DNA of 33,750 nt from a virus: the IMG/VR virus record IMGVR_UViG_3300010354_007956, positions 1 through 33,750 of that record, one strand, 5' to 3'. The notes beneath the pieces are model-generated. The model ran no database searches. It had not been told where the DNA came from and saw nothing but the letters and a program-made list of their open reading frames with translations. Positions 3,101 through 32,957 of the stretch are shown here, in pieces; position 1 is the first letter of the stretch; each line of letters begins with the position of its first letter. A program made the position numbers and the translations under genes.

Positions 3101-4351
3101 TTAACTTACATAATCGACTAAACATTGAAGTTCTGGAATAACTTCTAATAAATTTTGATTTCGTATTTTATCTATTTTTTTAGTATCTTCTAAAAATTCT
3201 ATTATCTTATTTTTATCTGGCGGTTCTGGATTATCTAGTTTTTCCAAAATTTGTCTAAGATGTTCATCTATATTTACTGGATATGTATTGGAAAAATTCA
3301 ATAACTTTTCTTTTATTTTTTGTCGCTGTTCAATAGGATATAACTCCAAATTATATATACCATCACGCATGTTTCCTTCTTGCGACAATGTAAAATTTGA
3401 GAACGAATATTCTTCTTTAATAAAATTAATATCAATTAAATATGAAATAATTTCTGGTATCCTATCAACATTGAAAATACTAACAACAATATTAGCAGAT
3501 ACATTAAAAATATTAGGACTAAATCCTAAGATAGTAAAATCATGAAATATATTAGATATTGTTTTTAAGTTACTAGATAATTTATTCCATACCGTTCCAT
3601 ACCTAACATATTCAGATCTTGATCCTATTTCATCAATACTAATATTAACAAATAGTTTAGATGAATCCCATTTAGACCATAATTTTAATATATCATTATT
3701 TTTATAATCTATTACAGAAAAATTAGTATTGTATCTCAATTCTACCTGTGACTGTTTATTATTAGCAATAAGATATTCTAACATTTCATAATGCTCATCC
3801 ATTATTAATACTTCACCACCAGAAAACTCAATGAGTTCTAAGTTATCAATATTGTCACGATACAATTTCTTAAAATCAAAATAATTGTTAACATTTAAAA
3901 TAGGTTCATCATAATAATCACCTAAATTATTAACTCTAGTTTCAAAATTAATAGAACTGCTAAGTTTTGCCCAACATGTTCTACACTTGAAATTACATTT
4001 ATTACTTAATCTGTAATCAAAACCCTTTATTTTAATTTCTTTAACGGATCCATCATCAAGTGTAATAGAATCAACCTCAGAAAAACTACTTTCAAATTTT
4101 TTATTGTAAAAATATTTTAAATTTTCATGATCAAATTCATTAGTACATGATTGGCACGATTCGGGCAAATCATCTTTAAACATATCCAATCTGAATTGCT
4201 TCATCTTATCACCATTCCAAATTTCTTCTAAAGTTTGGAATTTTAAATTTCCCAACTCAGTTGCATTACTACAACAAGGCACCACAGTTCCTTCAGGAAG
4301 TATATCCAAATAAACCCATGGTACAATACATTTGGGTATTCTATTTGCCAT
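3101..4351 (-). CDS. Radical SAM protein with N-terminal SPASM/twitch-like domain
   Basis: Radical SAM enzymes use a 4Fe-4S cluster and S-adenosylmethionine to start radical reactions. In this 416-residue protein the cluster motif CNFKCRTC (C119, C123, C126; CX3CX2C) lies after an N-terminal region, and FSGGE is found further on. The first ~80 residues look like a SPASM or twitch auxiliary-cluster domain (C8 in CIVPWVYLDI, PCC at 25-27, GNLKFQTLEEIWNG at 34-47, CQSC at 66-69). This domain normally follows the radical SAM core, so here the order is reversed. The substrate is unknown. An AATAAATA late-type promoter lies 28 bases upstream, and the gene is followed after 2 bases by the Cys-rich small gene. 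Confidence 0.85.
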   Translation of the reverse strand: MANRIPKCIVPWVYLDILPEGTVVPCCSNATELGNLKFQTLEEIWNGDKMKQFRLDMFKDDLPESCQSCTNEFDHENLKYFYNKKFESSFSEVDSITLDDGSVKEIKIKGFDYRLSNKCNFKCRTCWAKLSSSINFETRVNNLGDYYDEPILNVNNYFDFKKLYRDNIDNLELIEFSGGEVLIMDEHYEMLEYLIANNKQSQVELRYNTNFSVIDYKNNDILKLWSKWDSSKLFVNISIDEIGSRSEYVRYGTVWNKLSSNLKTISNIFHDFTILGFSPNIFNVSANIVVSIFNVDRIPEIISYLIDINFIKEEYSFSNFTLSQEGNMRDGIYNLELYPIEQRQKIKEKLLNFSNTYPVNIDEHLRQILEKLDNPEPPDKNKIIEFLEDTKKIDKIRNQNLLEVIPELQCLVDYVS

Positions 4352-20520: not shown

Positions 20521-20549
20521 ATTGTATCAAGGTAGTCAATTTTAGTCAA
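20521..20549 (-). promoter_or_regulatory. sigma70-like promoter of mazG
   Basis: TTGACT (20544-20549, 5/6), a 17-base spacer, then TACAAT (20521-20526, 5/6) on the minus strand, with mazG starting at 20497. The -35 overlaps the stop of the upstream dehydrogenase gene. One of the best promoters in the window. Confidence 0.7.
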
Positions 20550-21763
20550 GTGCTAAATCTACTGTTTCCATAATGAATTACATGATGTTCATCAGATTTA
20601 AATTTTCTCCAGGGGTCAAGAATAATACTACCACTCGGAATTTCACAATAAAGTTCATCCTTACTATCTTCGTGCCAATATGTAGTAGAAGCACTATGAG
20701 CAAGGAGAAATACTGCAGGACCATTTGGAGTATATTCATCCCCAGTGTACTTGTCAACATAAATTGGCGTTTTACCCATCTCAACACAATAATGTCCAAC
20801 TAGAAGACTATAACTACCGTCAATATAAGGAACCTTTGGTTTATACGCTTTACCATGAATAACAATAGGTAATTCATCACCAGCAAGTTCAATCAATTTC
20901 TTTGCAAGATTTTTTGCTTGAACCTCACGAGATCCCATAATACTTTCAAATAAATCATATCCAAGATCTAATTTTTCAGCAAGATACCGAAGAGCAATAT
21001 TATCTCTTGGATGACATGCACCACCATCACCCATTCCTGCAGTCATATAATGAGAACTAATAATTCTAGAAGAACCTAGACATAATGCTTTAGTAACAAC
21101 ATCAACATTAATATTACCAGATCGTTCAGCAACATCCTGTATCATGTTGACAAAACTAATCTTATTACTGATGAAGGTATTATAAAAAACTTTAATGCAC
21201 TCGCATTCGTCCCAAGTACCAACAACATATGGAGGATCATTTTCCATGATTGTTTCGTAAAAATTAATCAGTTGTTTAGCATCTCCATTCCTTTTACCAT
21301 CTTGCGTCCCAATCATAACCATCTCAGGATTAACCATATCCCAAGCGACAGAACCCATTGCGATAAGATAAGGGTTGTAAACAAATCTAGTATTCTCAAC
21401 TAAATCGCAAAATTCATTTCTAGTTGTTCCAGGAAGAACCGTAGAAATAAGAACAAGTAATTGATTTTTATTCATGTACTTGTTCGCTTCAACTAAACAC
21501 TCTTTTACAATATTATAAGAAAAATCTTTTGGTTCAAGATCCATACAAGGTTTACTACCATCATATTCAGGATCATGTGGAGTTGGAACAGCGATAAAAA
21601 CAATCTCTTTACTATCTACAACTTCTTTAATAGAACTTTTAACAGAAACCAAATCACTGTTACGCTCTAAGACATCATAACCACTCACATTATGTCCATG
21701 AAGGACGATCTCTTCGGCACACGGCATTCCAAGTTTACCAAGTCCGATAAATCCAATTTCCAT
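20546..21763 (-). CDS. UDP-glucose/GDP-mannose dehydrogenase family protein, full length
   Basis: These enzymes oxidise the C6 of a nucleotide sugar to a uronic acid with NAD. The 405-residue protein has the N-terminal Rossmann start FIGLGKLGMP (5-14), VPTPHDPEYDG (59-69), STVLPGTT (107-114), the central K191/N195 (CIKVFYNTF) and the catalytic C250 in GDGGACHPRD. It also has a C-terminal domain (IHGKAYKPKVPYIDGS) that binds the nucleotide sugar in this family. All parts are present, so it should be active; the exact sugar cannot be told. It starts 3 bases after the amidinotransferase stop, and both are read from the promoter at 22759. Confidence 0.88.
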   Translation of the reverse strand: MEIGFIGLGKLGMPCAEEIVLHGHNVSGYDVLERNSDLVSVKSSIKEVVDSKEIVFIAVPTPHDPEYDGSKPCMDLEPKDFSYNIVKECLVEANKYMNKNQLLVLISTVLPGTTRNEFCDLVENTRFVYNPYLIAMGSVAWDMVNPEMVMIGTQDGKRNGDAKQLINFYETIMENDPPYVVGTWDECECIKVFYNTFISNKISFVNMIQDVAERSGNINVDVVTKALCLGSSRIISSHYMTAGMGDGGACHPRDNIALRYLAEKLDLGYDLFESIMGSREVQAKNLAKKLIELAGDELPIVIHGKAYKPKVPYIDGSYSLLVGHYCVEMGKTPIYVDKYTGDEYTPNGPAVFLLAHSASTTYWHEDSKDELYCEIPSGSIILDPWRKFKSDEHHVIHYGNSRFST

Positions 21764-21765
21764 AA

Positions 21766-22743
21766 TTAATCCCTCTCAAGATCTAAAGTTACACAGTGAA
21801 ATCCACCACTCAAGGTGCGTTGATGCCTCATAGGTAGCATAGCACATTCTATACCAGATTTTTCAAGAACTTTCCTAGTAGGATGCTGGTGCTCTTCTAG
21901 AGCAACTAAATTTGGATTTACACTAAACAAATTCATATTTACCCACTCCGAAGCATTATTATATCCTGGATAATAACCAATGTCTATTGGTTCTGGACAC
22001 CAAATAATATCCCATTTATCAAATGGTTCGGGAAGAACATCTCTAGATTTAATTCTACTTGGATTTGCTAAAAGTAAACCTTCACGTAAGAAAGCAATTG
22101 TAGTATCAATATGAACATAACTATAAACATTTTCCAAATAATGAACTTTATATTGAACGTCCGACCCTTCATTTAAAATATTTGATATTTTCCTTCCACC
22201 AGATTTATTACCACTATTAGAAACTAGATATAAAATATGTTCGTTGGCACGTATTGCATTAGCAGCATCAAAAGCAACTATATTATCATTAAGTGCTAAA
22301 ATATCAGGATTTCCAATACATTTTTCATTATAAAGATCATCCATATAATTACATTTTAATTCTATAACATCATTATTGAAATGATGCTTCATGGATAACC
22401 AATTATTTTCTCTAGATCTTAATGGCATAGGTGCAGAAATAGCCTTATTGCCATGAATAAAAATACAATCTCTTGGACAAAAATTATAATATTCTGTTGG
22501 TTCTCTCTTTGGTCTTAAAACTTCTACATCTTGTTTTTTTAAAAAATCAACAAATATTTCCAAATCTTCATTTGCTTCATCTATAACTTGTTTTGGATAA
22601 GGTCCCGTTTTTATAGTGTTTTCATCTTGTACATCAGCATAATTAATAGTGCGAAGACTTTTATCTAAAGGAGGAATAGTCGCATAGTCTGCAACACCAA
22701 CTATTACTTTCTTTAGTTTTCCCCATTCATTAGTACTATACAT
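21766..22743 (-). CDS. Amidinotransferase (glycine / inosamine-phosphate amidinotransferase-like)
   Basis: The family moves the amidino group of arginine onto an amine, making guanidino compounds (creatine precursor, streptidine of streptomycin). The 325-residue protein has the expected triad: D159 in AFDAANAIRANE, H211 with D213 in VHIDTTIAF, and the nucleophile C317 in GGFHCVTLDLERD. PRDCIF at 90-95 matches the conserved RD element. The intact triad suggests activity as a transferase or related hydrolase. The substrate is not visible. Its position between a sugar dehydrogenase and a large sugar-modification operon containing StrS-like aminotransferases makes an amino-sugar acceptor attractive; that is inference. 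Confidence 0.88.
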   Translation of the reverse strand: MYSTNEWGKLKKVIVGVADYATIPPLDKSLRTINYADVQDENTIKTGPYPKQVIDEANEDLEIFVDFLKKQDVEVLRPKREPTEYYNFCPRDCIFIHGNKAISAPMPLRSRENNWLSMKHHFNNDVIELKCNYMDDLYNEKCIGNPDILALNDNIVAFDAANAIRANEHILYLVSNSGNKSGGRKISNILNEGSDVQYKVHYLENVYSYVHIDTTIAFLREGLLLANPSRIKSRDVLPEPFDKWDIIWCPEPIDIGYYPGYNNASEWVNMNLFSVNPNLVALEEHQHPTRKVLEKSGIECAMLPMRHQRTLSGGFHCVTLDLERD

Positions 22744-22758
22744 TTATTAAATAGAAAT

Positions 22759-22787
22759 ATTTTAAATTATTTTTATAAAATTGTCAA
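22759..22787 (-). promoter_or_regulatory. sigma70-like promoter of the amidinotransferase-dehydrogenase pair
   Basis: A perfect TTGACA (22782-22787), a 17-base spacer and TAAAAT (22759-22764, 5/6) lie on the minus strand; the gene starts at 22743. The TGA stop of the last glycosyltransferase gene is inside the -35 box, so the glycan array ends exactly on this promoter. Confidence 0.7.
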
Positions 22788-23587
22788 CAATCAACCCTAA
22801 TTGTCATTTTTTCATCGTTTGGTTTACCGTAAGTAAAAAATTCATCTAAAGTAAAATCATTCCTTTTATTGATCCACCAGTAATAATAATACTTTTTACA
22901 CAATTCATGATGTTTTCTATCTATCAATACATCATACTCGGTGCTACCAAGTTCCGTGTTTGTAGTAATTAATGGTATACAATATGTTTTTCCAGTATGA
23001 CCTATAAAATAATCTACAGTGATAGAACAGTCTTTAAAAGTTAAATCACAAACTACTTTATCTAAACAATACTTATCACCATTCATATGCAGTCTCAATA
23101 TTTTTTCTGCATATTCCCTAGTAATTAAAACTGGTCCAAAAAAACTACCCCTGGTTTTGGGGTGTAAGAAAAAGGGAATATACTCTTTAGTCTCAAAACC
23201 TAATTGAATACAGTCCCAATCATAAGGTAATCTTGACATCAAATAATCCCAATCAAAATGCCAATATCTTATCAAATTTAAATCATAATCATCTTCCATT
23301 AAAATGACATATGGATCATTAGTCGTATTTAACCACATTTTTAATGTTTCAAAATGACTTATGGCAGTTCCAACTACATATGCAGGTATATTTTTTACTT
23401 TACCTTCTATTAAGTTCGACCACTCTTTAGATCTTGAAGCTAAGTATTTTGAAGTAGAAACTCTAGTATAATTTGTTATGCCCCAATACAGAAATTGTTT
23501 TTCCATATACTCTTTTCTATCAACTCTATTATCTAAATTCAAATAATAAATGTGTGGGATATTTTTTAACTTATTAAATAAATCCAT
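22784..23587 (-). CDS. GT25-like glycosyltransferase, array copy 6 (last in operon)
   Basis: The fold resembles glycosyltransferase family 25, enzymes that often add sugars to lipopolysaccharide or proteins. The 267-residue protein starts NKLKNIPHIYYLNLDNRVDR (5-24), the usual nucleotide-sugar-binding start, and has the acidic motif EDD at 98-100 (ILMEDDYDL), intact. A FDWDYL...PYDWDCIQLGFE block follows at 111-132, then HPKT and FFGPVLITREYA. The C-terminus has the array signature WW followed by FTLDEFFTYGKPND (246-259). It is the last of six tandem paralogues and ends within the promoter at 22759. Its substrate is unknown. By eye it is close to copies 3 and 4. Confidence 0.82.
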   Translation of the reverse strand: MDLFNKLKNIPHIYYLNLDNRVDRKEYMEKQFLYWGITNYTRVSTSKYLASRSKEWSNLIEGKVKNIPAYVVGTAISHFETLKMWLNTTNDPYVILMEDDYDLNLIRYWHFDWDYLMSRLPYDWDCIQLGFETKEYIPFFLHPKTRGSFFGPVLITREYAEKILRLHMNGDKYCLDKVVCDLTFKDCSITVDYFIGHTGKTYCIPLITTNTELGSTEYDVLIDRKHHELCKKYYYYWWINKRNDFTLDEFFTYGKPNDEKMTIRVDC

Positions 23588-24405
23588 TATTCAAACAACC
23601 ACCAACTATAATTTTTAATTTTTCTAATCATAGAGATATCATTAGGTTTACCATATGTAAAAAATTCATCTAGAGTTACTTTATTAGACTGATTTTGCCA
23701 CCAATCATAATACACATTTCTACAGCAAGATATTAATTTATATTTCTTTCCATCTTTATTTAAAAACTTAGGATTAGATGGTAACAAAGGAATTGAATAT
23801 GTTTTTCCATTGTGTCCAATAAAATAATCAATAGTTCCAGAATGACCACCCATATTCATGTTGGCAATGTAATTAGATAATTTACACTTATCACCAGAAT
23901 AATGTAACTTTACTATTTTTTTAGCATAATGCCTGTTTATCAAAGATGGTCCAAATGTATGACTTGGTAATATTGGATGCAAATAAAAAGGAATTATTGA
24001 TACATTTTCAAATCCCAATTGTATACAGTCCCAATCATATGGAATATTATCCATAATTGTTTTCCAATCAAAAACCCAATGATCTATGATCTCAAAATCA
24101 GTTATATCTTTTATTAAAATAAAATATTGCTCATCAGTTTCACTCAACCATTTCTTAATGAATTCTAGAACGGATACCGCATAAGAAGCAACATTATAAT
24201 TCAATCTGTATAAATTTAAGTCTATTACCTTTTCCCCAATATTACTTTCGTTGTAGGTAGATGTAGACACTCTTTCATAATTTTCTATTCCAAATTTAGA
24301 AAACTGATCTTCGATATAATTTTTTCTATTTAAATGATGGTCATAATTCAAATAATATATTTTTGGAATTCCAATTATTTTTTCATGTAATTTCATATTA
24401 CTCAT
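23587..24405 (-). CDS. GT25-like paralogue with altered acidic motif, array copy 5
   Basis: This 272-residue member begins with a shifted start (MSNMKLHEKIIGIPKIYYLN) and keeps the DHHLNRKNYIEDQF element, PYDWDCIQLGFE and the C-terminal FTYGKPND. At the place of the catalytic EDD it reads IKDITDFEI (about 98-106), so the first acidic residue is Lys and the third is Ile. In GT-A folds this acidic group binds the metal of the sugar nucleotide, so this copy may have lost transferase activity or changed use. The reading frame is intact, arguing against simple decay. It shares one base with the next gene's end (stop/start overlap). A regulatory or partner role is a guess. Confidence 0.8.
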   Translation of the reverse strand: MSNMKLHEKIIGIPKIYYLNYDHHLNRKNYIEDQFSKFGIENYERVSTSTYNESNIGEKVIDLNLYRLNYNVASYAVSVLEFIKKWLSETDEQYFILIKDITDFEIIDHWVFDWKTIMDNIPYDWDCIQLGFENVSIIPFYLHPILPSHTFGPSLINRHYAKKIVKLHYSGDKCKLSNYIANMNMGGHSGTIDYFIGHNGKTYSIPLLPSNPKFLNKDGKKYKLISCCRNVYYDWWQNQSNKVTLDEFFTYGKPNDISMIRKIKNYSWWLFE

Positions 24406-25285
24406 ATTGCAACAATACCTGTTCTCTTATACTTATCATCTTATTAAAAAAATATTTAGGGTCACAATCAACAACACTCCTCTGCATCAAACTATCATTT
24501 GGTTTACCATAAGTAAAGAATTCATCTAAAGTAAATTTATCTCTACAGTATTTCCACCAATCATAATATGTATCTAAACATATTTGCATGTGAGGTCTAG
24601 GTAACCAAACATTGTCTTCAAAACTTCCAAAACACGGATTTAATGGTATTAATGGCAATGCATAAGTTTTTCCATTTTGACATAAAAAATAATCACCAGT
24701 ACCAGAAACACTTTTATATCCCTTATGATTTTTCCATACAGAATTCCCTATATTATTATCAAGTTTATACTTATCACCAACACAGTGCAATCTCAATAGT
24801 TTTTCAACATAACTTCTATTAAATAAACAAGGACCTAAAGAATACTCATAATTTAATGGATGAAGATAAAAAGGAATTATATCGGGGGATTCAAATCCCA
24901 ACATAATACAATCCCAATCATACGGCAATTTAGACATCAAATAGTCCCAGTCAAAATGCCAATATTCAATAATTCCCAAGTCATAATCATCTTCCATCAT
25001 TATTAGATACTCATCATCAGTAGCATCTAACCAGTGTTTTAAAAAATCAAAATGTGTTATTGCATGTGCAACAGCATAAGAAAAAGAATTTGTAGTATCA
25101 CCCAATACCAAATGCTTCCATTTTTCTTTTTCAGATACTAAAAATTTAGATGCCGATATCCTTGTAAAATTTTCTATACCCCACCTTTTAAATTGCGTTT
25201 CCATATATTTTTTTCTATCAATTCTCTCATCAAGATTTACATAGTAAATATGAGGTATATTTTTTAATTTATTTTTTATGGTCAT
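24398..25285 (-). CDS. GT25-like glycosyltransferase, array copy 4
   Basis: The 295-residue protein starts KNKLKNIPHIYYVNLDERID (4-23), has an intact acidic motif (IMMEDDYDLGIIEYW, EDD 98-100) and the PYDWDCIMLGFE block. Compared with copy 6 it has a longer insert between the GDKYKLDNNIGNS part and TGDYF (about 175-205), and a C-terminal extension of about 20 residues after GKPNDSLM. The ATG at 25285 lies within the last 17 bases of the upstream gene. Catalytic residues look complete, so an active glycosyltransferase is likely; donor and acceptor are not predictable. Confidence 0.82.
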   Translation of the reverse strand: MTIKNKLKNIPHIYYVNLDERIDRKKYMETQFKRWGIENFTRISASKFLVSEKEKWKHLVLGDTTNSFSYAVAHAITHFDFLKHWLDATDDEYLIMMEDDYDLGIIEYWHFDWDYLMSKLPYDWDCIMLGFESPDIIPFYLHPLNYEYSLGPCLFNRSYVEKLLRLHCVGDKYKLDNNIGNSVWKNHKGYKSVSGTGDYFLCQNGKTYALPLIPLNPCFGSFEDNVWLPRPHMQICLDTYYDWWKYCRDKFTLDEFFTYGKPNDSLMQRSVVDCDPKYFFNKMISIREQVLLQYE

Positions 25286-26129
25286 ACATTTTATATCTTG
25301 CTGGATTATAAACCATTAAGTGGTCATTTGGTTTTCCATACGTGAAAAATTCATCTAAAGTAAACTTATCTCTTTCATTTTTCCACCAATAATAGTATGT
25401 ATTTCTAGCCATAACATCTCCACCCTGTCGGTAAATATTGTGTTGAACTCTACTGTGATTTTCAAAACTACCAAAATCAGGATTTGTCGTTATTAAAGGT
25501 ATTGTATATGTCTTTCCAGGGTGACACATAAAATAATCAACAGTTCCAGAACCAGCAACATCTTCTTGCCGATTCCAAGCAGCACTACAAACTGTGTTTA
25601 CTAACTTATACCTGTCACCTTCACAATGCAATCTTATAAGTTTTTCAACATAATTTCTATTCAATAAACAAGGACCAAAATCATGAGCAGAATCTATAGG
25701 GTGTAAATAAAACCTAAGACCTAAAGGATTTTCATATCCCAATTGAATACAATCCCAATCATAAGGTATCCTCGTCATCAAATAATCCCAATCAAAATGC
25801 CAGTATTCTATTAAACTTAAATCATAATCATCTTCCATCAATATCAAATATTCATCATTACTACTCCTCAACCATGTTTTTAAAAAATCTAGATGCGTTA
25901 TTGCGTTGGCGGCAATAGGAACCAATAAATTATAATTCTGACAATCAATTATTAAATGTTTCCATTCATCCTTTTTAGATGCTAAAAATTTAGTTCCAGA
26001 TATTCTAGTATAGTTTTTTATACCCCAATATTTAAACTGGGTTTCCATGTATTCACGTCTATCTGTTCTATTGTCAAGATTAAAATAATAAATATGTGGT
26101 ATATTTTTTAATTTGTTATTTAAATCCAT
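25269..26129 (-). CDS. GT25-like glycosyltransferase, array copy 3
   Basis: The 286-residue protein starts NNKLKNIPHIYYFNLDNRTD (4-23). The acidic motif EDD is at 99-101 (LILMEDDYDLSLIEYW), followed by DWDYLMTRIPYDWDCIQLGY. The central HPIDSAHDFGPCLLNRNYVE and TVDYFMCHPGKTY match the other copies, and the C-terminus carries FTLDEFFTYGKPND. At DNA level it is closest by eye to copies 6 and 4: blocks of about 30 bases near 25776, 23237 and 24935 are nearly identical. This suggests recent duplication. It overlaps the upstream gene by 10 bases and the downstream gene by 17. Confidence 0.82.
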   Translation of the reverse strand: MDLNNKLKNIPHIYYFNLDNRTDRREYMETQFKYWGIKNYTRISGTKFLASKKDEWKHLIIDCQNYNLLVPIAANAITHLDFLKTWLRSSNDEYLILMEDDYDLSLIEYWHFDWDYLMTRIPYDWDCIQLGYENPLGLRFYLHPIDSAHDFGPCLLNRNYVEKLIRLHCEGDRYKLVNTVCSAAWNRQEDVAGSGTVDYFMCHPGKTYTIPLITTNPDFGSFENHSRVQHNIYRQGGDVMARNTYYYWWKNERDKFTLDEFFTYGKPNDHLMVYNPARYKMYDHKK

Positions 26130-26965
26130 AATATTTTTTGCTCATCATTCATAAATTTTATATTTAATGCTTCTCCATATACTTTATTTTGGTGATCATC
26201 TTCCAAAAAAAGTTTCATTCTGAAATCATTAGGTTTACAAAAATGAAATTTATCAAAAACAGTAAATAACTTTGATTTAGTCTTCCACCAATTCTCAACA
26301 CTGACAGATGAATTTTTTTCAATGTCATCTTCATAATTTCCCCACGTATTGAAAATTGGGAATGTATAGCATATACCCATCTCAAACAGAAAAAAATTTA
26401 TATCCCCATAATAGTACTCTTGTATGCTATAATTTTTAGTGCCATTATGTAACTTATATTTACCATCAAAAAAATGTAATTTTTTTATTTTTTTAGCAAA
26501 TTGTCTAGTTATCATAAAACATTTGGATTTACATATATCTTCATCTTTAGGTTTAAGATGCATAGAAAGAACATCAGATTTAATAACATTTAATTGTACA
26601 CAATCCCAATTATAAGGAAGACACTTCATTAAAAATTTCCAATTAAATGACCAGTATTCAGCAAGATTAATGTTTATAGTATCATCCATAAAAATACAAT
26701 ATTCATCTTCAAAATTATCATACCAATCAATAATAGATTTCAAATGAGTAAAATTATATATCAATTGATTATCAGTTAAAGATAAATCATCATCTAAAAT
26801 TACTTTCTTATAATTTTTATATTCATAAGAAATTCTTTCATAATTTGCAATATTCCATTTTATAAAATTATCTTCAATAACTTGTTTATTTTGAGTGTCT
26901 TTATCGTGATTGAAATAACGTATTCTAGGAATTCCAGTTAATTTATTTGTATTTTCTACATTCAT
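26120..26965 (-). CDS. Divergent GT25-like paralogue, array copy 2
   Basis: The 281-residue protein is the most divergent member. The start reads NKLTGIPRIRYFNHDKDTQN (7-26) and lacks the DR pair of the usual LD.R.DR element. The acidic site reads FMDDTININ (about 92-100), so Glu is replaced by Asp and the third acidic residue by Thr. It keeps PYNWDCVQLN, FDGKYKLHNG and a C-terminal WWKTKSKLFTVFDKFHFCKP that matches the signature only partly. The frame is open and overlaps both neighbours, so it is expressed as part of the array. Activity is doubtful from the missing residues; a structural or substrate-binding role is possible. Confidence 0.76.
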   Translation of the reverse strand: MNVENTNKLTGIPRIRYFNHDKDTQNKQVIEDNFIKWNIANYERISYEYKNYKKVILDDDLSLTDNQLIYNFTHLKSIIDWYDNFEDEYCIFMDDTININLAEYWSFNWKFLMKCLPYNWDCVQLNVIKSDVLSMHLKPKDEDICKSKCFMITRQFAKKIKKLHFFDGKYKLHNGTKNYSIQEYYYGDINFFLFEMGICYTFPIFNTWGNYEDDIEKNSSVSVENWWKTKSKLFTVFDKFHFCKPNDFRMKLFLEDDHQNKVYGEALNIKFMNDEQKILWI

Positions 26966-27837
26966 AATGTTATATAAGTGTTGTTAAAAGATGGTATGGT
27001 TATTGTCATTTTATAATCATTAGATTTATTATAATTAAAAAAATCTTCAGCAGTAAATTCTTGACTTTCATTCATCCACCATTTCTTGATATAATAACTA
27101 GAGAATATATCATTCATTTTATTGTGATGCATTTTTATAGTATCATCATAATCTTGCCCAGGAAATAAACTTGGTTTATTATCTGGATTTTGTGATAGAT
27201 GTTGATTTAACGAAAATAATGGTAAGGTATAATTAACACCGACTTGATAGATTAAAAAATCATCACTACTATAACAAGGTTTTTCAACTCTACAATCTCT
27301 TAAATTATTATCCAATTTAAATCCACCATCAGGTCTCAAATGCATTTTGATTAACTTTTCAGCATACCATCTGTTAATCATATAACATGCACCTGAGCAA
27401 CAATTATGAAGTCTCTTTTTAAGATGCATTGGAATATAGGCATAATGACAAAAATATAAAAGAATACAATCCCAATTATAAGGAAGGTTTTTCATCAAAT
27501 AATCCCAATCAAACATCCAATATTCTATTAAATCAAGGGATAAATCATCTTGCATAATAATACAATATTCAGAAATTCCAGAATTATACCAATCTATTAT
27601 TGTAGTAAATTGGTTCATTACAATTGAAGCGTCTGAAGGAGTTAATAACATCAAATCTAACTTATCTTTCCACTCATCAATTTTATCGATAGAATACCTA
27701 GAAGCAGAAACTCTGGTGTAATCAGTTATTCCCCATTTTTTAAATTGGGTTTCCATATTATTTTTTCTATCAATTCTATGATCTAAATTTTGATAAAATA
27801 TTGGTGGTAAATTTTTTAACTTATTATCTAAATTCAT
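26962..27837 (-). CDS. GT25-like paralogue, array copy 1 (first of six)
   Basis: The 291-residue protein starts DNKLKNLPPIFYQNLDHRID (4-23), the canonical opening. Its acidic site reads IMQDDLSLDLIEYW (QDD at 96-98): Gln replaces Glu but two Asp remain, so metal binding is possible. The PYNWDCILLYF block, HLRPDGGFKLDNN and the C-terminal FTAEDFFNYNKSND follow; Ser replaces the usual Pro of GKPND. It shares an ATGA overlap with both the upstream short DegT-like gene and the next copy. Compared with the others it has a longer insert before the WW signature. It links the array to the sugar-synthesis genes upstream. Confidence 0.78.
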   Translation of the reverse strand: MNLDNKLKNLPPIFYQNLDHRIDRKNNMETQFKKWGITDYTRVSASRYSIDKIDEWKDKLDLMLLTPSDASIVMNQFTTIIDWYNSGISEYCIIMQDDLSLDLIEYWMFDWDYLMKNLPYNWDCILLYFCHYAYIPMHLKKRLHNCCSGACYMINRWYAEKLIKMHLRPDGGFKLDNNLRDCRVEKPCYSSDDFLIYQVGVNYTLPLFSLNQHLSQNPDNKPSLFPGQDYDDTIKMHHNKMNDIFSSYYIKKWWMNESQEFTAEDFFNYNKSNDYKMTITIPSFNNTYITL

Positions 27838-28433
27838 TTTCTAAAAACCTCCATGTCTGGAAGATAGGGATAATTTAAATATCCATATCTTTTGGGTTCT
27901 TTATATGCAACATCTTTAAACTTTTCAATTCCCATTGATGCTATTTCTGGGGTCATATAATAATGATATCCAATCATTTTTATATTTTGTTCACCCCATG
28001 GTTTATCGGATGATCTACCATCATATACCATTTTTTTAAGTACATCATATGCTTCTTTGTTATCCAACAAAATTATTCCACCTCTACCCAAACTTAAATG
28101 TTTTCTAAATTGAAAACTTACACACATATAAGTATTTTTAATGTAACTATTCTGCTTCCATAAGAATGCAGCGTCTATTATATTTGTATTCCCAAGATAA
28201 TAATAATCTCTCCATTGATAATTTCTTTGCCAATCCCACTTCAATCCTAGTTTTTCTGCAGTAAATGGAATTGAAATATAGGTATGCTCAGGAATAAGAA
28301 TATTATTGTATTGTTCATATCTCAAACATAATTCTACGGCATGAGTGCAACAATCCGTTGCCACTGCATAAGGTGAACCAAAAAATTCAGATATTATTTT
28401 TTCAAAATCTTCGATGACAGAAAAATTATTCAT
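27834..28433 (-). CDS. Short DegT/DnrJ/EryC1/StrS aminotransferase-like protein
   Basis: Family members put an amino group on a keto sugar using PLP. This protein is 199 residues, about half the usual ~370. The large-domain parts are present: EDFEKIISEFFGSPYAVATD start, PEHTYISIPFTAEKLG, D87 in NIIDAAF (pyridine partner) and K111 in SFQFRKHLSLGRGG (PLP lysine). The family's C-terminal small domain is missing or replaced by ~70 residues ending LNYPYLPDMEVFRK. The frame is open with ATGA overlaps on both sides, so it is not a simple truncation. It could be active as a minimal enzyme, or act with the full-length homologue at 31253. Confidence 0.78.
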   Translation of the reverse strand: MNNFSVIEDFEKIISEFFGSPYAVATDCCTHAVELCLRYEQYNNILIPEHTYISIPFTAEKLGLKWDWQRNYQWRDYYYLGNTNIIDAAFLWKQNSYIKNTYMCVSFQFRKHLSLGRGGIILLDNKEAYDVLKKMVYDGRSSDKPWGEQNIKMIGYHYYMTPEIASMGIEKFKDVAYKEPKRYGYLNYPYLPDMEVFRK

Positions 28434-29071
28434 ATTGATTTACTATAAAGAACAAAATCCTTTTCATACAATTTATAAAAATATTTTAAATCCATTCTAA
28501 CATAGGTATAAAATATTTTTTCACACATAAGTTTTGTAATTATATTACTCTCTCTTTCTTTTTGAAGAGATATTTTTGAATGGTGTAATAGTTGATTTAT
28601 TTTATCCTCTAATTTATCATCCAATTTTAAATAAGTATTATCTAATTTATCTATGTAGGGATCTATGAATACGTGTTGTGGAGAAGTGTGATAATCAAAT
28701 ATGTATTTTTTATTTTTTATTTGTTCAATAATATAATTAGTTGATACATCAAACCTATTCATAAATTCACCAAGTGCAGAAATCCATCTTTTTATTGGAT
28801 CCCTAATCACACAAAAAGACTTATATTTTTTATAATCTAATAACATTTCAATATCATTTACATCAATATTAGTCATATCAATAAACATTAAATTTTTTAA
28901 TGCTGATGAAATCGATGTACTAGCACATTTGTCTATATGTAAATATACTAATTTCTCCTTTGTACTCATATAACACCCATTATATTCCCTACATTTATCA
29001 ACTTCTAAATTTTCACATTTAAAGGTAAAAGAAGAACAATAATCACCATACAGATTTATAATATTATTCAT
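28430..29071 (-). CDS. Sulfotransferase-like protein
   Basis: Sulfotransferases move sulfate from PAPS to sugars or proteins. The 213-residue protein has a 5'-phosphosulfate-binding loop HIDKCASTSI at 45-54 (family form HxxKTGGTSI, here with Cys-Ala-Ser) and a 3'-phosphate-binding motif VIRDPIKRWISA at 88-99 (R90, R95, S98). Both are characteristic of the carbohydrate sulfotransferase group (Sulfotransfer_2). The rest is helical and Lys/Tyr-rich. Overlap with the upstream oxygenase is 8 bases. In this operon the natural substrate would be the sugar made or attached by the neighbours, which is inference. Confidence 0.82.
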   Translation of the reverse strand: MNNIINLYGDYCSSFTFKCENLEVDKCREYNGCYMSTKEKLVYLHIDKCASTSISSALKNLMFIDMTNIDVNDIEMLLDYKKYKSFCVIRDPIKRWISALGEFMNRFDVSTNYIIEQIKNKKYIFDYHTSPQHVFIDPYIDKLDNTYLKLDDKLEDKINQLLHHSKISLQKERESNIITKLMCEKIFYTYVRMDLKYFYKLYEKDFVLYSKSI

Positions 29072-29585
29072 TCAAAATTCTAGCGGTCACTTGTAATGTA
29101 TATCTATTTTCTCGACCAATATTTGCGGCAACATGTGGAGCTTCACCCAACCACATACAACAATCACCTTTATTCCAGTTCACTATTGGATCATCATCAA
29201 CTTCAAAATAATGACCAGATTTCCAGTCATCCAAAAAAACTAAAATTCTACATACCTGATTAGGGTCATCAATACCAAGCATTTTTTTATAGACGGGATA
29301 TGTATCTTTATGCTCTGGCATTATTGTTCCTGGTGGCATACAATATAAACATAATTTTGGATTAGTTATTTTAAACTTATTACTTAATTGATTGAGTACA
29401 TCATAACACCAACTAGGAAGTCCCTTATATTCTTCAATTAAAAATCCAGTATAATTAACATATAAATGACCAAGATCTTTCCAATGATTTACAGTACTAT
29501 CATCGGGAAACTGTCTTCTCGGGGAGTATACCAAATCTTCAAAATTACCTATAAGATCTGGATTTATTTTTTCAAAGTAATGCAT
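29064..29585 (-). CDS. 2-oxoglutarate/Fe(II)-dependent oxygenase, Asp/Asn hydroxylase-like
   Basis: These enzymes hydroxylate substrates using 2-oxoglutarate, oxygen and iron. From the ATG at 29585 the product is 173 residues with the iron triad H92 and D94 (PEHKDTY) and H151 (APHVAANIG), and R161 (RYTLQVT) for 2-oxoglutarate. The pattern near the second His resembles aspartyl/asparaginyl beta-hydroxylases. A TTG at 29615 would add ten residues and overlap the upstream gene by 44 bases; the ATG still overlaps it by 14. The substrate could be a sugar or a protein. Confidence 0.82.
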   Translation of the reverse strand: MHYFEKINPDLIGNFEDLVYSPRRQFPDDSTVNHWKDLGHLYVNYTGFLIEEYKGLPSWCYDVLNQLSNKFKITNPKLCLYCMPPGTIMPEHKDTYPVYKKMLGIDDPNQVCRILVFLDDWKSGHYFEVDDDPIVNWNKGDCCMWLGEAPHVAANIGRENRYTLQVTARILNE

Positions 29586-30495
29586 TGTTCTTATACCATT
29601 TACAAGTTTTTTCAAGTCCTTCTTGTATTGAAGTAAACTTTGTAATATTAGTTATATTGCACATCAGTTCGATATTTGGAGATCTTCTATCAACAGACCC
29701 ATCTTTAAAATTTAAATTCAAAATTTCAGATTTATAATCAAATATAGAAAATATTTTATAAACCAAATCTCTTATAGAAATTTCATCATTAACACCAATA
29801 TTAATAATTTTACGATTACTATGCTCACTATTCATAATACTCTCAAGCATTAATATTGCATCATCAACGTAACAAAAAGATCTGGTTTGATTTCCACCAT
29901 AAACTTTAAAGGGATTTTCTTTTAAAAGAACACGGTTAATAACTTCGGGAATTACATGGTTATATCCCATTCTTGGACCATAGATATTGTGAGGTCTGAC
30001 TATGGAAAAATTAAGACCAGAATTTATAAACATCAATTCACCAAGTATTTTACTTCCAGCATAAGACCATCTTGGATTGTAAACATTATTAATTGAAACT
30101 GTAACATCTTCTTTTGTTGGTATCTCTTTATCGACAGTAGATGCGTACACTTCAGATGATGAAGTATATAATACCTTTTTCACCCCAGTCTTCTTACACC
30201 ATTTTATAAAATTTATATTAATCAAAGTATTAATTTCTAAAACTTGATATGGCATTTCATAAAAATTACTAGTGCCATTTATAGCAGCAAAATGGTATAC
30301 ATAATCATATTTTCCTAGTTTTTCGTACTCATCTTCCTTTGTTAAATCACACTCAATATAAGCGATATCTTTTACAAACTCATCTACTTTACCCCTAAAA
30401 TTATTATCGCATATAGTTACATCATTATTTTTAGACAAATGCCTAGCTAAATGAGATCCTATAAATCCAGTTCCACCAGTTATAAGTATTTTCAT
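29572..30495 (-). CDS. NAD-dependent nucleotide-sugar epimerase/dehydratase
   Basis: The protein belongs to the extended short-chain dehydrogenase family that epimerises or dehydrates nucleotide sugars. The 307-residue protein has the NAD-binding TGGTGFIGSH (6-15), the serine motif TSSSEVY (111-117) and the catalytic pair Y145 and K149 (SYAGSKILGE). RPHNIYGPRMGYN and a C-terminal GGNQTRSFCYVDDAI complete the family features, so the enzyme appears intact. A dehydratase product (4-keto sugar) would be the natural substrate for the DegT aminotransferases in the same operon. Overlap with the upstream dehydrogenase gene is ATGA. Confidence 0.9.
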   Translation of the reverse strand: MKILITGGTGFIGSHLARHLSKNNDVTICDNNFRGKVDEFVKDIAYIECDLTKEDEYEKLGKYDYVYHFAAINGTSNFYEMPYQVLEINTLININFIKWCKKTGVKKVLYTSSSEVYASTVDKEIPTKEDVTVSINNVYNPRWSYAGSKILGELMFINSGLNFSIVRPHNIYGPRMGYNHVIPEVINRVLLKENPFKVYGGNQTRSFCYVDDAILMLESIMNSEHSNRKIINIGVNDEISIRDLVYKIFSIFDYKSEILNLNFKDGSVDRRSPNIELMCNITNITKFTSIQEGLEKTCKWYKNNALL

Positions 30496-31256
30496 AAAAA
30501 TTTTTTATTATCCTCAATGATTGTTTCAAATAATTTAATATTTAAATTATTTTGTTTACAATAATTATCCATTGCTAGTGTGTCTTTTGGTAAACAAGAA
30601 CCAGAAAATCCTCTAAGATTTTTATTACAATTTAAATACAATCCAGATATAAAATCTTTTTTAGTGAGGGCATTTTTAACATCATCATAATTGACATTAA
30701 GATTTTCACATATTTCATAAAAAACATTTGCTAAAGTAATCATAGTAGCATTATGAATGTTATGAAAATATTTTAAAATTTCACTCTGAGTTGGATTTAA
30801 CATAATATAGTTTTTGGGATAAAACCCATGAGATTTTTTAACTATTTCAAAAATACTTTCATCTAAAGTTCCAACAATACATATATCATGATTATCCATA
30901 AAATCAGATACTGCACATCGTTCTCTAAGAAATTCTGGAACGTGGCATATTTTTAAATCATACAAATCTATCAAGTTTTGTGTTGTTCCTGGTTCAACGG
31001 TAGATTTTATAGCAACTACGCCTTGATAATTTAATAAATTAAGTTGGGTTACAACATCAAGTACAATAGAAGTATCACATTTACCTTCAGATGTGCTTGG
31101 AGTAGGAACACAAATATAGCAAATGTCCGTCTCCAAAACATCATTAATTTTAGTTTTTAAAATAATGTCATGAGGGATAACTTCATATCCCAATCTACTA
31201 AAGCAATATTCCAGTGTTTTACCAACAACTCCTAAACCAATAATACCTATCCTCAT
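30492..31256 (-). CDS. Short UDP-glucose/GDP-mannose dehydrogenase-like protein
   Basis: The 254-residue protein matches only the first two domains of the family. It has GIIGLGVVGK (4-13), CVPTPSTSEGKCD (49-61), KSTVEPGTT (84-92), PEFLRE (107-112), E159 and K162 (SEILKYFHN), and the catalytic C221 in GSCLPKD. It stops at KLFETIIEDNKKFL, where other members continue with the ~100-residue nucleotide-sugar-binding domain. The full-length relative lies at 20546. Catalytic residues are intact, so a reduced enzyme or one that borrows binding from a partner is possible. The stop is followed immediately by the epimerase in an ATGA overlap. Confidence 0.82.
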   Translation of the reverse strand: MRIGIIGLGVVGKTLEYCFSRLGYEVIPHDIILKTKINDVLETDICYICVPTPSTSEGKCDTSIVLDVVTQLNLLNYQGVVAIKSTVEPGTTQNLIDLYDLKICHVPEFLRERCAVSDFMDNHDICIVGTLDESIFEIVKKSHGFYPKNYIMLNPTQSEILKYFHNIHNATMITLANVFYEICENLNVNYDDVKNALTKKDFISGLYLNCNKNLRGFSGSCLPKDTLAMDNYCKQNNLNIKLFETIIEDNKKFL

Positions 31257-32392
31257 AGTTTTTCGTACCTCGATACAATATTAATAATTTTATCTACATC
31301 AGAATTAGTCATTTCATAATGACAAGGTATCATTATGTGATGATCTTCAGCATATTGAACATTTACTAAAGAATTATCAATTCCACCAAAAATTGGATAT
31401 TGATCTAGTCTTCTATTATTCATATGCACATGAATATTATTTTCCCACATTAACTCAGCAAATTTTTTCCTATCCTTAACAAATATTGGAAATATCTGAT
31501 AGTTCGGAACATTATAATCACTATATTTTACCAATTTTATATTTTCAAAATTTTTAAATGCCTCTCTATATCTTTGACCAATATATCTTCTACGATCTAA
31601 ACATCTATCCAAATAATTTAGTGCAATATTTGCCATAGATGCGGTGATATCATTCATATTTAATTTAAATCCTAAAGTATCTGGCATATAATCAAAAAAT
31701 GGATCTACATTCATACTTCCATCTCTAGCATCCCGATCTATACCAAACCACAAAGATTTTTTCAATTTACTATAATATTCATCATTACTAGTAGTAACAA
31801 ACCCACCATCACCACAAGTAATTATCTTTACTGTTTGAAGAGAAAATGTACACAATTCACCAGATCCAATTTTTTCCCCTTTATAATAAGATCCCATTGC
31901 ATGACAACAATCTTCAATTAATGGTAGATTATACCTTTTACAAACATCACGCAGTTCATCGAGATCAACTGGATTTCCAGCAAAATGAACACAAACTACT
32001 GCTTTTGTTTTTTTGGTTATTTTTCCTTCCACACTTTTTGGATCAATATTCAAAGTATCTTTTTGAATATCTGCAAATACTGGTTTTGCACCCATCTCAA
32101 GTATAGCAGTATTAGTTGCAATAAAAGTCCAGGGAGTAGTAATTACCTCATCCCCAGACTTTATTCCTATAGCAGAATATGCAGATTTTAATGATCCAGT
32201 TCCACTAGTAGTTGCAACTGAATATTTTGCATTAAATATTTTACATATTTTTTCCCTCAACACTCTTTCTTTTTTTCCAGTATTAATCCAACCTGATTTT
32301 AGGACTTCAGAAATATCTTTATCCAAATCTTCAGGTATAAATGCACCAGAGCATCTAATTTCTTTTCCTAAATTTCCGTCGTATTTAAACAT
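31253..32392 (-). CDS. DegT/DnrJ/EryC1/StrS aminotransferase, full length
   Basis: This PLP enzyme transfers an amino group to a keto sugar nucleotide. The 379-residue protein shows TSGTGSLKSA (62-71), TTPWTFIATN (85-94), D161 in PLIEDCCHAMGS, and the PLP lysine K189 in SLQTVKIITCGDGG. The C-terminal domain with NDITASMANIALN and the substrate-facing HYEM segment is present, so it is complete, in contrast to the 199-residue relative at 27834. In antibiotic and surface-polysaccharide pathways such enzymes act after a dehydratase, matching the epimerase/dehydratase here. It overlaps the upstream oxygenase gene by 8 bases. Confidence 0.92.
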   Translation of the reverse strand: MFKYDGNLGKEIRCSGAFIPEDLDKDISEVLKSGWINTGKKERVLREKICKIFNAKYSVATTSGTGSLKSAYSAIGIKSGDEVITTPWTFIATNTAILEMGAKPVFADIQKDTLNIDPKSVEGKITKKTKAVVCVHFAGNPVDLDELRDVCKRYNLPLIEDCCHAMGSYYKGEKIGSGELCTFSLQTVKIITCGDGGFVTTSNDEYYSKLKKSLWFGIDRDARDGSMNVDPFFDYMPDTLGFKLNMNDITASMANIALNYLDRCLDRRRYIGQRYREAFKNFENIKLVKYSDYNVPNYQIFPIFVKDRKKFAELMWENNIHVHMNNRRLDQYPIFGGIDNSLVNVQYAEDHHIMIPCHYEMTNSDVDKIINIVSRYEKL

Positions 32393-32957
32393 GGTTGTTA
32401 TTAATTAAATCGAATACATGATCTTCCTGTATGGTAAACCACATAGCAATAGTATATCTAGGGTTTGTTTTAACCTCAGTAACACCATGTTCAACATATG
32501 ATGGAAAAAATACGACTTTCCCTTTCTCAGGTATACATGCTTTATTCTCGTTAGGAAAAAATGTATATCCACCTTCATACCCATCGTTCAAATAGCATAT
32601 AGAACTATAGTATCTAAATGGCAACTTTGCAGTATCTGGATTAGTGCCTCTACTAGGATCATAATTATCAATATGAGCATCCATACTCATTCCTGGACCC
32701 CAATAAACAATATCAATAAATTCACTGAATATAAATTTTTCATCATAAAAAAGTTTAGATGCCGTTTGAACCATTTTCTGTTCAAATGCTCTAAATTTTT
32801 GAATTATATTTGGGTCCTTTATTTCACGAGGAGTTAGAGTTCTTCCATGAAAATCTTGATGTGTTTGCCACCAACTTCTTTGACCACTCTCATTAAAATA
32901 TTTTATAACTTCATCACAAAATTCATGTGATAAAAAATTAGGTATTTCGTATATCAT
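32385..32957 (-). CDS. 2-oxoglutarate/Fe(II)-dependent oxygenase, prolyl-4-hydroxylase-like
   Basis: The 190-residue protein carries the iron ligands H95 and D97 (MDAHIDNYDP) and H157 (YVEHGVTEV) and the 2-oxoglutarate arginine R167 (PRYTIAMWF). Together with CYLNDGYEGGYTFFP these fit the P4H-like 2OG-Fe(II) fold often found in T4-like cyanophages. It is the first gene after gp41, separated by 5 bases, and leads the sugar operon. It may modify a protein or a sugar; the family alone does not decide. It is distinct in sequence from the second oxygenase at 29064. Confidence 0.85.
   Translation of the reverse strand: MIYEIPNFLSHEFCDEVIKYFNESGQRSWWQTHQDFHGRTLTPREIKDPNIIQKFRAFEQKMVQTASKLFYDEKFIFSEFIDIVYWGPGMSMDAHIDNYDPSRGTNPDTAKLPFRYYSSICYLNDGYEGGYTFFPNENKACIPEKGKVVFFPSYVEHGVTEVKTNPRYTIAMWFTIQEDHVFDLINNNHV

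Follow-up and report, generated by a model that had tools for sequence, protein, structure and literature searches.

A Candidate Guanidino-Sugar Module in T4-Like Cyanophages: Linkage of a StrB1-Type Amidinotransferase with a Half-Size DegT/StrS Aminotransferase

The Glycan-Gene Operon and Its Viral Setting

The DNA analyzed in this work (referred to here as the window) is a virus record of 33,750 bases that originates from a T4-like cyanophage. The NrdA protein encoded by it is 86% identical to that of Synechococcus phage S-T4, and the window also codes for NrdB, a gp61-like primase, a gp41-like helicase, transaldolase and 6-phosphogluconate dehydrogenase. Seven tRNAs are present, beyond which nothing was detected in an Rfam scan of the window. 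Many relatives of this virus are known solely from water metagenomes, and no match to the cluster described below was found in phage records searched at near-identity. The glycan-gene operon lies on the - strand, where it extends from position 32957 down to 20546 and is flanked by genes for the helicase and MazG. In addition to sugar enzymes, it encodes six GT25-like glycosyltransferases, one sulfotransferase and two 2OG oxygenases. The genes of this operon, in order of coordinates, are as follows:

20546..21763, - strand, NDP-sugar dehydrogenase (UDP-glucose/GDP-mannose dehydrogenase family), 405 aa; adjoins the amidinotransferase in window-type phages
21766..22743, - strand, predicted StrB1-type L-arginine amidinotransferase, 325 aa; key residues R91, D92, R111, D159, H211, D213 and C317
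22784..23587, - strand, GT25-like glycosyltransferase a; weak PF01755 match
23587..24405, - strand, GT25-like glycosyltransferase b
24398..25285, - strand, GT25-like glycosyltransferase c; modeled with pLDDT 91.9, structural matches being Mimivirus R655 and human COLGALT1
25269..26129, - strand, GT25-like glycosyltransferase d
26120..26965, - strand, GT25-like glycosyltransferase e, divergent
26962..27837, - strand, GT25-like glycosyltransferase f
27834..28433, - strand, half-size DegT/StrS aminotransferase (mini-DegT), 199 aa; D87, K111, T30, S106 and R140 kept
28430..29071, - strand, sulfotransferase (Sulfotransfer_2), optional
29064..29615, - strand, Asp/Arg-hydroxylase-type 2OG-Fe(II) oxygenase, 183 aa; invariant H102, D104, H161 and R171
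29572..30495, - strand, UDP-glucuronate-decarboxylase-like SDR, lineage-specific addition
30492..31256, - strand, short UDP-glucose dehydrogenase, 254 aa, lineage-specific addition; catalytic Cys kept, lacks the C-terminal domain
31253..32392, - strand, full-length ArnB/PseC-like DegT aminotransferase, 379 aa, lineage-specific addition
32385..32957, - strand, 2OG-Fe(II) oxygenase (2OG-FeII_Oxy_3)

A preliminary description of this region had listed two NDP-sugar dehydrogenases, an epimerase/dehydratase, two DegT/StrS-family aminotransferases and an amidinotransferase. All of these are intact, co-directional open reading frames on the - strand with family matches far beyond chance, but one of the assignments is narrowed: the nearest relative of the SDR is UDP-glucuronate decarboxylase (1e-31), which indicates an enzyme of the dehydratase/decarboxylase type and not a plain epimerase. 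The nearest relative of the full-length aminotransferase is ArnB (2e-56). The short dehydrogenase, the SDR and the full-length aminotransferase look like a separate, lineage-specific route to a UDP-4-aminopentose. The GT25 assignment is tentative, with a fold that matches GT25-type enzymes and only a weak Pfam match; the predicted structure of glycosyltransferase c is nearest to Mimivirus R655 and the human collagen galactosyltransferase COLGALT1, and this would fit a role in protein glycosylation.

The Amidinotransferase

Sequence comparisons indicate that the product of 21766-22743 is a true L-arginine amidinotransferase of the StrB1 type. Although neither Pfam nor NCBIfam gave a match for this protein, its best match in the PDB is StrB1 (1bwd), the L-arginine:inosamine-phosphate amidinotransferase of streptomycin biosynthesis, which it matches along its whole length with 39% identity over 312 aligned residues (E 4.7e-54); HsvA, AGAT and SxtG come next, with E values between about 1e-26 and 1e-23. 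Only amidinotransferases scored above noise in this search, with no deiminase or dihydrolase among the matches. The residues D159, H211 and C317, which had been noted earlier, are present; among 62 distinct phage amidinotransferases D159 and H211 are invariant and C317 is found in 61. The single exception is probably L056, whose row in the alignment is aberrant, probably as a result of a frameshift. R91, D92, R111 and D213 are likewise invariant in the phage enzymes, and in the alignment these four residues together with R230 and S265 agree with both StrB1 and AGAT; we take them, from the AGAT and StrB1 structures, to form the arginine-donor pocket. The phage enzymes thus have the catalytic and arginine-binding residues in common with StrB1, and their acceptor-side H(I/V)D motif is spaced identically, but they are about 11–12 residues shorter ahead of the CPRD motif.

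In phylogenetic trees the phage amidinotransferases formed a clade of their own (support 100/100) among the bacterial StrB1-type enzymes. The neighbors of this clade, a phage-like contig (L160) and a Bdellovibrionota gene, were joined to it with moderate support (90/81). AGAT, a distant outgroup, was placed far outside this assemblage, the wider grouping having moderate support. A second tree left out the long-branching CP220 and L056 rows. The Campylobacter phage amidinotransferases are a distant lineage nearer to HsvA. Clustering with dihydrolases, which the preliminary description had named as one outcome that would speak against its proposal, is absent, the enzyme being StrB1-like both by sequence and in the tree. 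The bacterial genomes that encode close amidinotransferases (L084–L163) have almost no partner genes in common, and hence the bacterial neighborhoods do not reveal the acceptor.

The Half-Size Aminotransferase

The mini-DegT protein matches PF01041 with 55.5 bits (gathering score 19.8), and 45 diverse members of its family all retain D87, K111, T30, S106 and R140 unchanged. By the standard DegT motifs, D87 would be the PLP-binding aspartate and K111 the Schiff-base lysine. The AlphaFold2 model (pLDDT 95.4) has GDP-perosamine synthase as its top Foldseek match, and with VIA-align it gave tied Z scores of 17–19 to many sugar aminotransferases, which do not tell a perosamine substrate apart from other amino sugars. 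The large-domain fold and the PLP lysine and aspartate are common to mini-DegT, GDP-perosamine synthase and other DegT/StrS sugar aminotransferases (3bn1, 7b0d, 4zwv); however, the latter are about 370 aa in length and only about 15–20% identical to it, and in mini-DegT the middle segment is shortened and the C-terminal small domain is absent. This domain is missing from all aligned members, which are all about half size, and mini-DegT is therefore a half-size relative of the DegT/StrS enzymes and not a standard member of the family. In full DegT enzymes the C-terminal domain contributes to the active site. Its loss counts against the explanation that we favor below, and the aminotransferase activity of mini-DegT is a prediction from the model.

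Relatives of mini-DegT occur in more than 550 viral stretches; none was found in 194 cyanobacterial genomes searched at E 1e-15. In the mini-DegT loci without a nearby amidinotransferase (n = 31), a Gmd-like GDP-mannose 4,6-dehydratase gene follows directly in 10 and is near in 13; these Gmd-like neighbors usually come with a WbuC-like cupin, and Fcl is beside Gmd in only three of the loci. In Flavobacterium phage immuto, mini-DegT is followed by a NeuD/PglD-type sugar N-acetyltransferase, an arrangement in which the same amine-maker would be combined with a different cap for the amine.

Conserved Linkage in Viral Loci

In a scan of viral contigs, relatives of the amidinotransferase were found in 182 stretches, from which 80 loci were retrieved and compared. 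Mini-DegT is present in 74 of these 80 loci, the Asp/Arg-hydroxylase-type oxygenase in 72 and GT25-like glycosyltransferases in 67–69. Other genes are optional, viz. an NDP-sugar dehydrogenase adjoining the amidinotransferase (40/80) and a sulfotransferase (34/80), while only 2–3 of the 80 loci, all of them closely related to the window, carry the full-length aminotransferase, the short dehydrogenase and the SDR. When the loci were clustered at 90% identity, mini-DegT was present in 24 of 25 clusters, the exception (L003) ending at a contig edge; at 95% identity it was present in 40 of 43.

The order of these genes is variable. In the window-type arrangement mini-DegT lies several glycosyltransferase genes upstream of the amidinotransferase, and in the type represented by cyanophage S-SCSM2R only the oxygenase or a few genes separate the two. 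The two genes directly abut in six loci (L069, L075, L079, L185, L186, and L230), and in L082 mini-DegT adjoins the amidinotransferase on its downstream side. Among the Synechococcus phages of a cultured-phage collection, the amidinotransferase was found in only one and mini-DegT in only one, and it is the same phage. As the linkage survives rearrangement of the gene order, it points to a single function for the amidinotransferase, mini-DegT, the oxygenase and the glycosyltransferases.

Uncut examples of an amidinotransferase without mini-DegT, which count against the pathway proposed below, are limited to L029 (a 24 kb contig) and L030 (8 kb). Conversely, searches of whole contigs (up to 106 kb) carrying mini-DegT of the Gmd-associated type did not find an amidinotransferase, whereas two GT25-type mini-DegT loci that appeared to lack it (L189 and L193) have one elsewhere on the contig. 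The occurrence of mini-DegT without the amidinotransferase, and the rarity of the reverse, fits a scheme in which the amine is introduced first and the amidine second. The preliminary proposal of a pathway combining the amidinotransferase with a StrS-family aminotransferase is borne out in that a StrB1-like enzyme is linked to such a protein in many phages, but the conserved partner is the half-size protein and not the full-length one.

Several loci also connect the amidinotransferase to nucleotide sugars. In L029 and L030 the stop codon of a Gmd-like gene overlaps the start of the amidinotransferase gene, and in L194 and L219 another SDR takes the place of the Gmd-like gene, overlapping or abutting the amidinotransferase. 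L082 contains a single operon with short overlaps that codes for GT25, the amidinotransferase, mini-DegT, a 365-aa protein, a cupin and a Gmd-like enzyme. A canonical Gmd is encoded elsewhere in the genome in five window-type relatives; in the nearest of these it lies about 25 kb downstream, a position whose equivalent would be just off the left end of the window. In these relatives Fcl directly follows Gmd, so that GDP-fucose is also made, and Gmd in the window-type phages, considered as direct support for perosamine, is consequently only weak evidence. No clear Gmd was found in the complete genome of S-SCSM2R, a further point against a perosamine-like route.

Proposed Pathway and Alternative Explanations

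On the basis of what is observed, namely the enzyme families, active sites whose residues are intact, the fold predicted for mini-DegT and the linkage of four conserved gene types, we propose, with a probability of roughly 0.55, that these genes constitute a phage glycan-building module in which a keto-sugar nucleotide is aminated by mini-DegT, amidinated, and transferred onto a viral or host glycan. The substrate, the order of the steps and the destination of the glycan are inferred as follows. A nucleotide-sugar 4,6-dehydratase, either the phage Gmd or that of the host, would form a sugar nucleotide of the 4-keto-6-deoxy type, with GDP-4-keto-6-deoxymannose as the likeliest one. Mini-DegT, with PLP bound on K111, would then add an amine to give a perosamine-like sugar, to which the amidinotransferase would transfer the amidino group of arginine via a Cys317-amidino intermediate, yielding a guanidino sugar and ornithine. 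Lastly, the GT25-like glycosyltransferases and the 2OG oxygenase, sometimes also with the uronic-acid-forming dehydrogenase and the sulfotransferase, would incorporate the guanidino sugar into a glycan carried either by virion proteins or by the surface of the host. A broader reading, which we advance only tentatively, is that T4-like cyanophages widely make a guanidinylated 4-amino-4,6-dideoxyhexose via mini-DegT and expose it, as a cationic sugar, on the glycans of the virion, in effect using streptomycin-like chemistry as surface decoration.

One alternative concerns the location of the sugar. The target may be a polysaccharide or LPS of the host surface instead of the virion, serving in superinfection exclusion or receptor masking, and the same chemistry is compatible with this. 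In its favor, bacterial LPS clusters often contain Gmd, WbuC-like cupins and GT25 families. We regard a host target as less likely than not, as the GT25 model best matches Mimivirus R655 and the collagen hydroxylysine galactosyltransferase, the L029 cluster, as read from its sequence, comes after tail-fiber-like genes, and polymerase or flippase genes were not recognized in the loci read. The acceptor could also be a small amine or amino acid, giving guanidinoacetate or a guanidino-polyamine, with the glycan genes being coincidental or regulatory neighbors. The phage enzyme has AGAT and HsvA among its homologs, the Campylobacter phage versions are nearer to HsvA, and phage genes of this type are commonly annotated as glycine amidinotransferase. 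However, the glycan partners are kept over several gene orders and genome positions, the start–stop overlaps are with nucleotide-sugar dehydratase genes, and the nearest characterized enzyme is StrB1 and not AGAT, and we therefore consider a small acceptor unlikely.

It is more unlikely still that the sugar amidinated is a UDP-Ara4N-like product of the full-length ArnB-like aminotransferase. The UDP-glucose dehydrogenase, decarboxylase-like SDR and ArnB-like aminotransferase do make up a coherent route, but this trio is restricted to a few loci closely related to the window and so cannot provide the acceptor in general. It appears very improbable that the module attaches guanidino or glycosyl groups to the bases of phage DNA: T4-like phages can glucosylate their DNA, and amine hypermodifications occur in some phages, but a base-hydroxymethylating enzyme was not recognized among the open reading frames of the window and the conserved partners are nucleotide-sugar enzymes and enzymes resembling protein glycosyltransferases.

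Comparison with Known Systems and Significance

A guanidino-sugar module of the kind proposed here may be compared with several known systems. StrB1 differs in its gene context, since the phage genes are linked to glycosyltransferases and mini-DegT and not to a recognized streptomycin cluster. The closest working analog is that of Mimivirus, where UDP-viosamine and Vio4NAc are made by a viral dehydratase, aminotransferase and acetyltransferase and are displayed on the capsid fibrils (PMC10117803, PMC9614988). It likewise combines a 4-amino-4,6-dideoxyhexose of its own, an amine-tailoring enzyme, glycosyltransferases and virion display; however, the amine is N-acetylated instead of the predicted amidination, the aminotransferase is of full length, and the virus infects eukaryotes. 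Phage-encoded amidinotransferases are not new in themselves, having already been annotated in Campylobacter phages CP220 and CPt10, as "glycine amidinotransferase" (PMC2853527), and in S-SCSM2R (PQ898602), as inosamine amidinotransferase. In CP220/CPt10 the gene is also clustered with nucleotide-sugar-transferase-like genes, but its product is 25% identical and radical SAM genes lie alongside it; no counterpart of mini-DegT or the oxygenase was found in CP220. S-SCSM2R has the same module (GT25s, mini-DegT, AspOx, and an amidinotransferase at 68%), differing in a radical SAM gene after mini-DegT, in having no NDP-sugar dehydrogenase beside the amidinotransferase, and in a second, short amidinotransferase elsewhere in the genome. 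Viral creatine-type genes are considered in a global survey of AMGs (PMC11360552), but in the literature that we searched neither the mini-DegT family nor its linkage to an amidinotransferase is described. Hence, while phage amidinotransferases and virus-encoded glycosylation with rare sugars were known before, the linked amidinotransferase/mini-DegT module is apparently new.

If the proposed pathway is correct, phages make guanidino sugars, a chemistry that is best known from the aminoglycoside antibiotics, and mini-DegT would be an active DegT enzyme of unusually small size. As S-SCSM2R is a cultured phage of Synechococcus WH7803, the module is directly testable. The guanidino group would place a fixed positive charge on the glycans of the cyanophage virion or of its host, with consequences for adsorption and defence.

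NDP-sugar dehydrogenases and other sugar genes

L069 1622-4144 (-): interrupted NDP-sugar dehydrogenase gene, with an Intein_splicing match
Window 30492-31256: short UDP-glucose dehydrogenase, C-terminal domain absent
L239 1498-3418: Gmd and Fcl (GDP-fucose route), radical SAM gene adjoining
Window 3101-4351: SPASM-type radical SAM protein
L082 3299-4396 and L029 7535-8629: conserved protein of ~365 aa

In two of the compared loci (L069 and L079), an interruption splits the NDP-sugar dehydrogenase gene precisely at the catalytic cysteine, and an endonuclease-like ORF separates the two halves. With its Intein_splicing match, this interruption looks like a split intein. Short UDP-glucose dehydrogenases of 242-265 aa, comparable to that of the window, were found in L211, L220, and L229.

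Gmd and Fcl, together with the adjoining radical SAM gene, are borne by the closest relative of the window (L239). A run of tRNA genes lies near the window's own radical SAM gene. The ~365-aa protein is flanked by a cupin/Gmd pair on one side and by mini-DegT or glycosyltransferase genes on the other; its comparison with Pfam gave no clear match, and it contains a dioxygenase-like H...H...R pattern.

Amidinotransferases and partners of mini-DegT

L245 23354-24247 (S-SCSM2R 213353-214246): second, shorter amidinotransferase, 297 aa
L160 5580-14991: region with amidinotransferase and mini-DegT, contig binned as Chloroflexi
L235 4986-6196: mini-DegT, then NeuD/PglD-type N-acetyltransferase, Flavobacterium phage immuto

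The second amidinotransferase of Synechococcus phage S-SCSM2R (22% identity) has KdsA/KdsB genes on one side and 2OG oxygenase genes on the other. The L160 contig, which looks phage-like, encodes, besides the amidinotransferase and mini-DegT, 2OG oxygenases, a B12-type radical SAM protein, a NodU-type carbamoyltransferase, a tryptophan halogenase and a possible AMP-ligase. In phage immuto, the N-acetyltransferase that follows mini-DegT suggests that the same amine is capped there in an alternative way.
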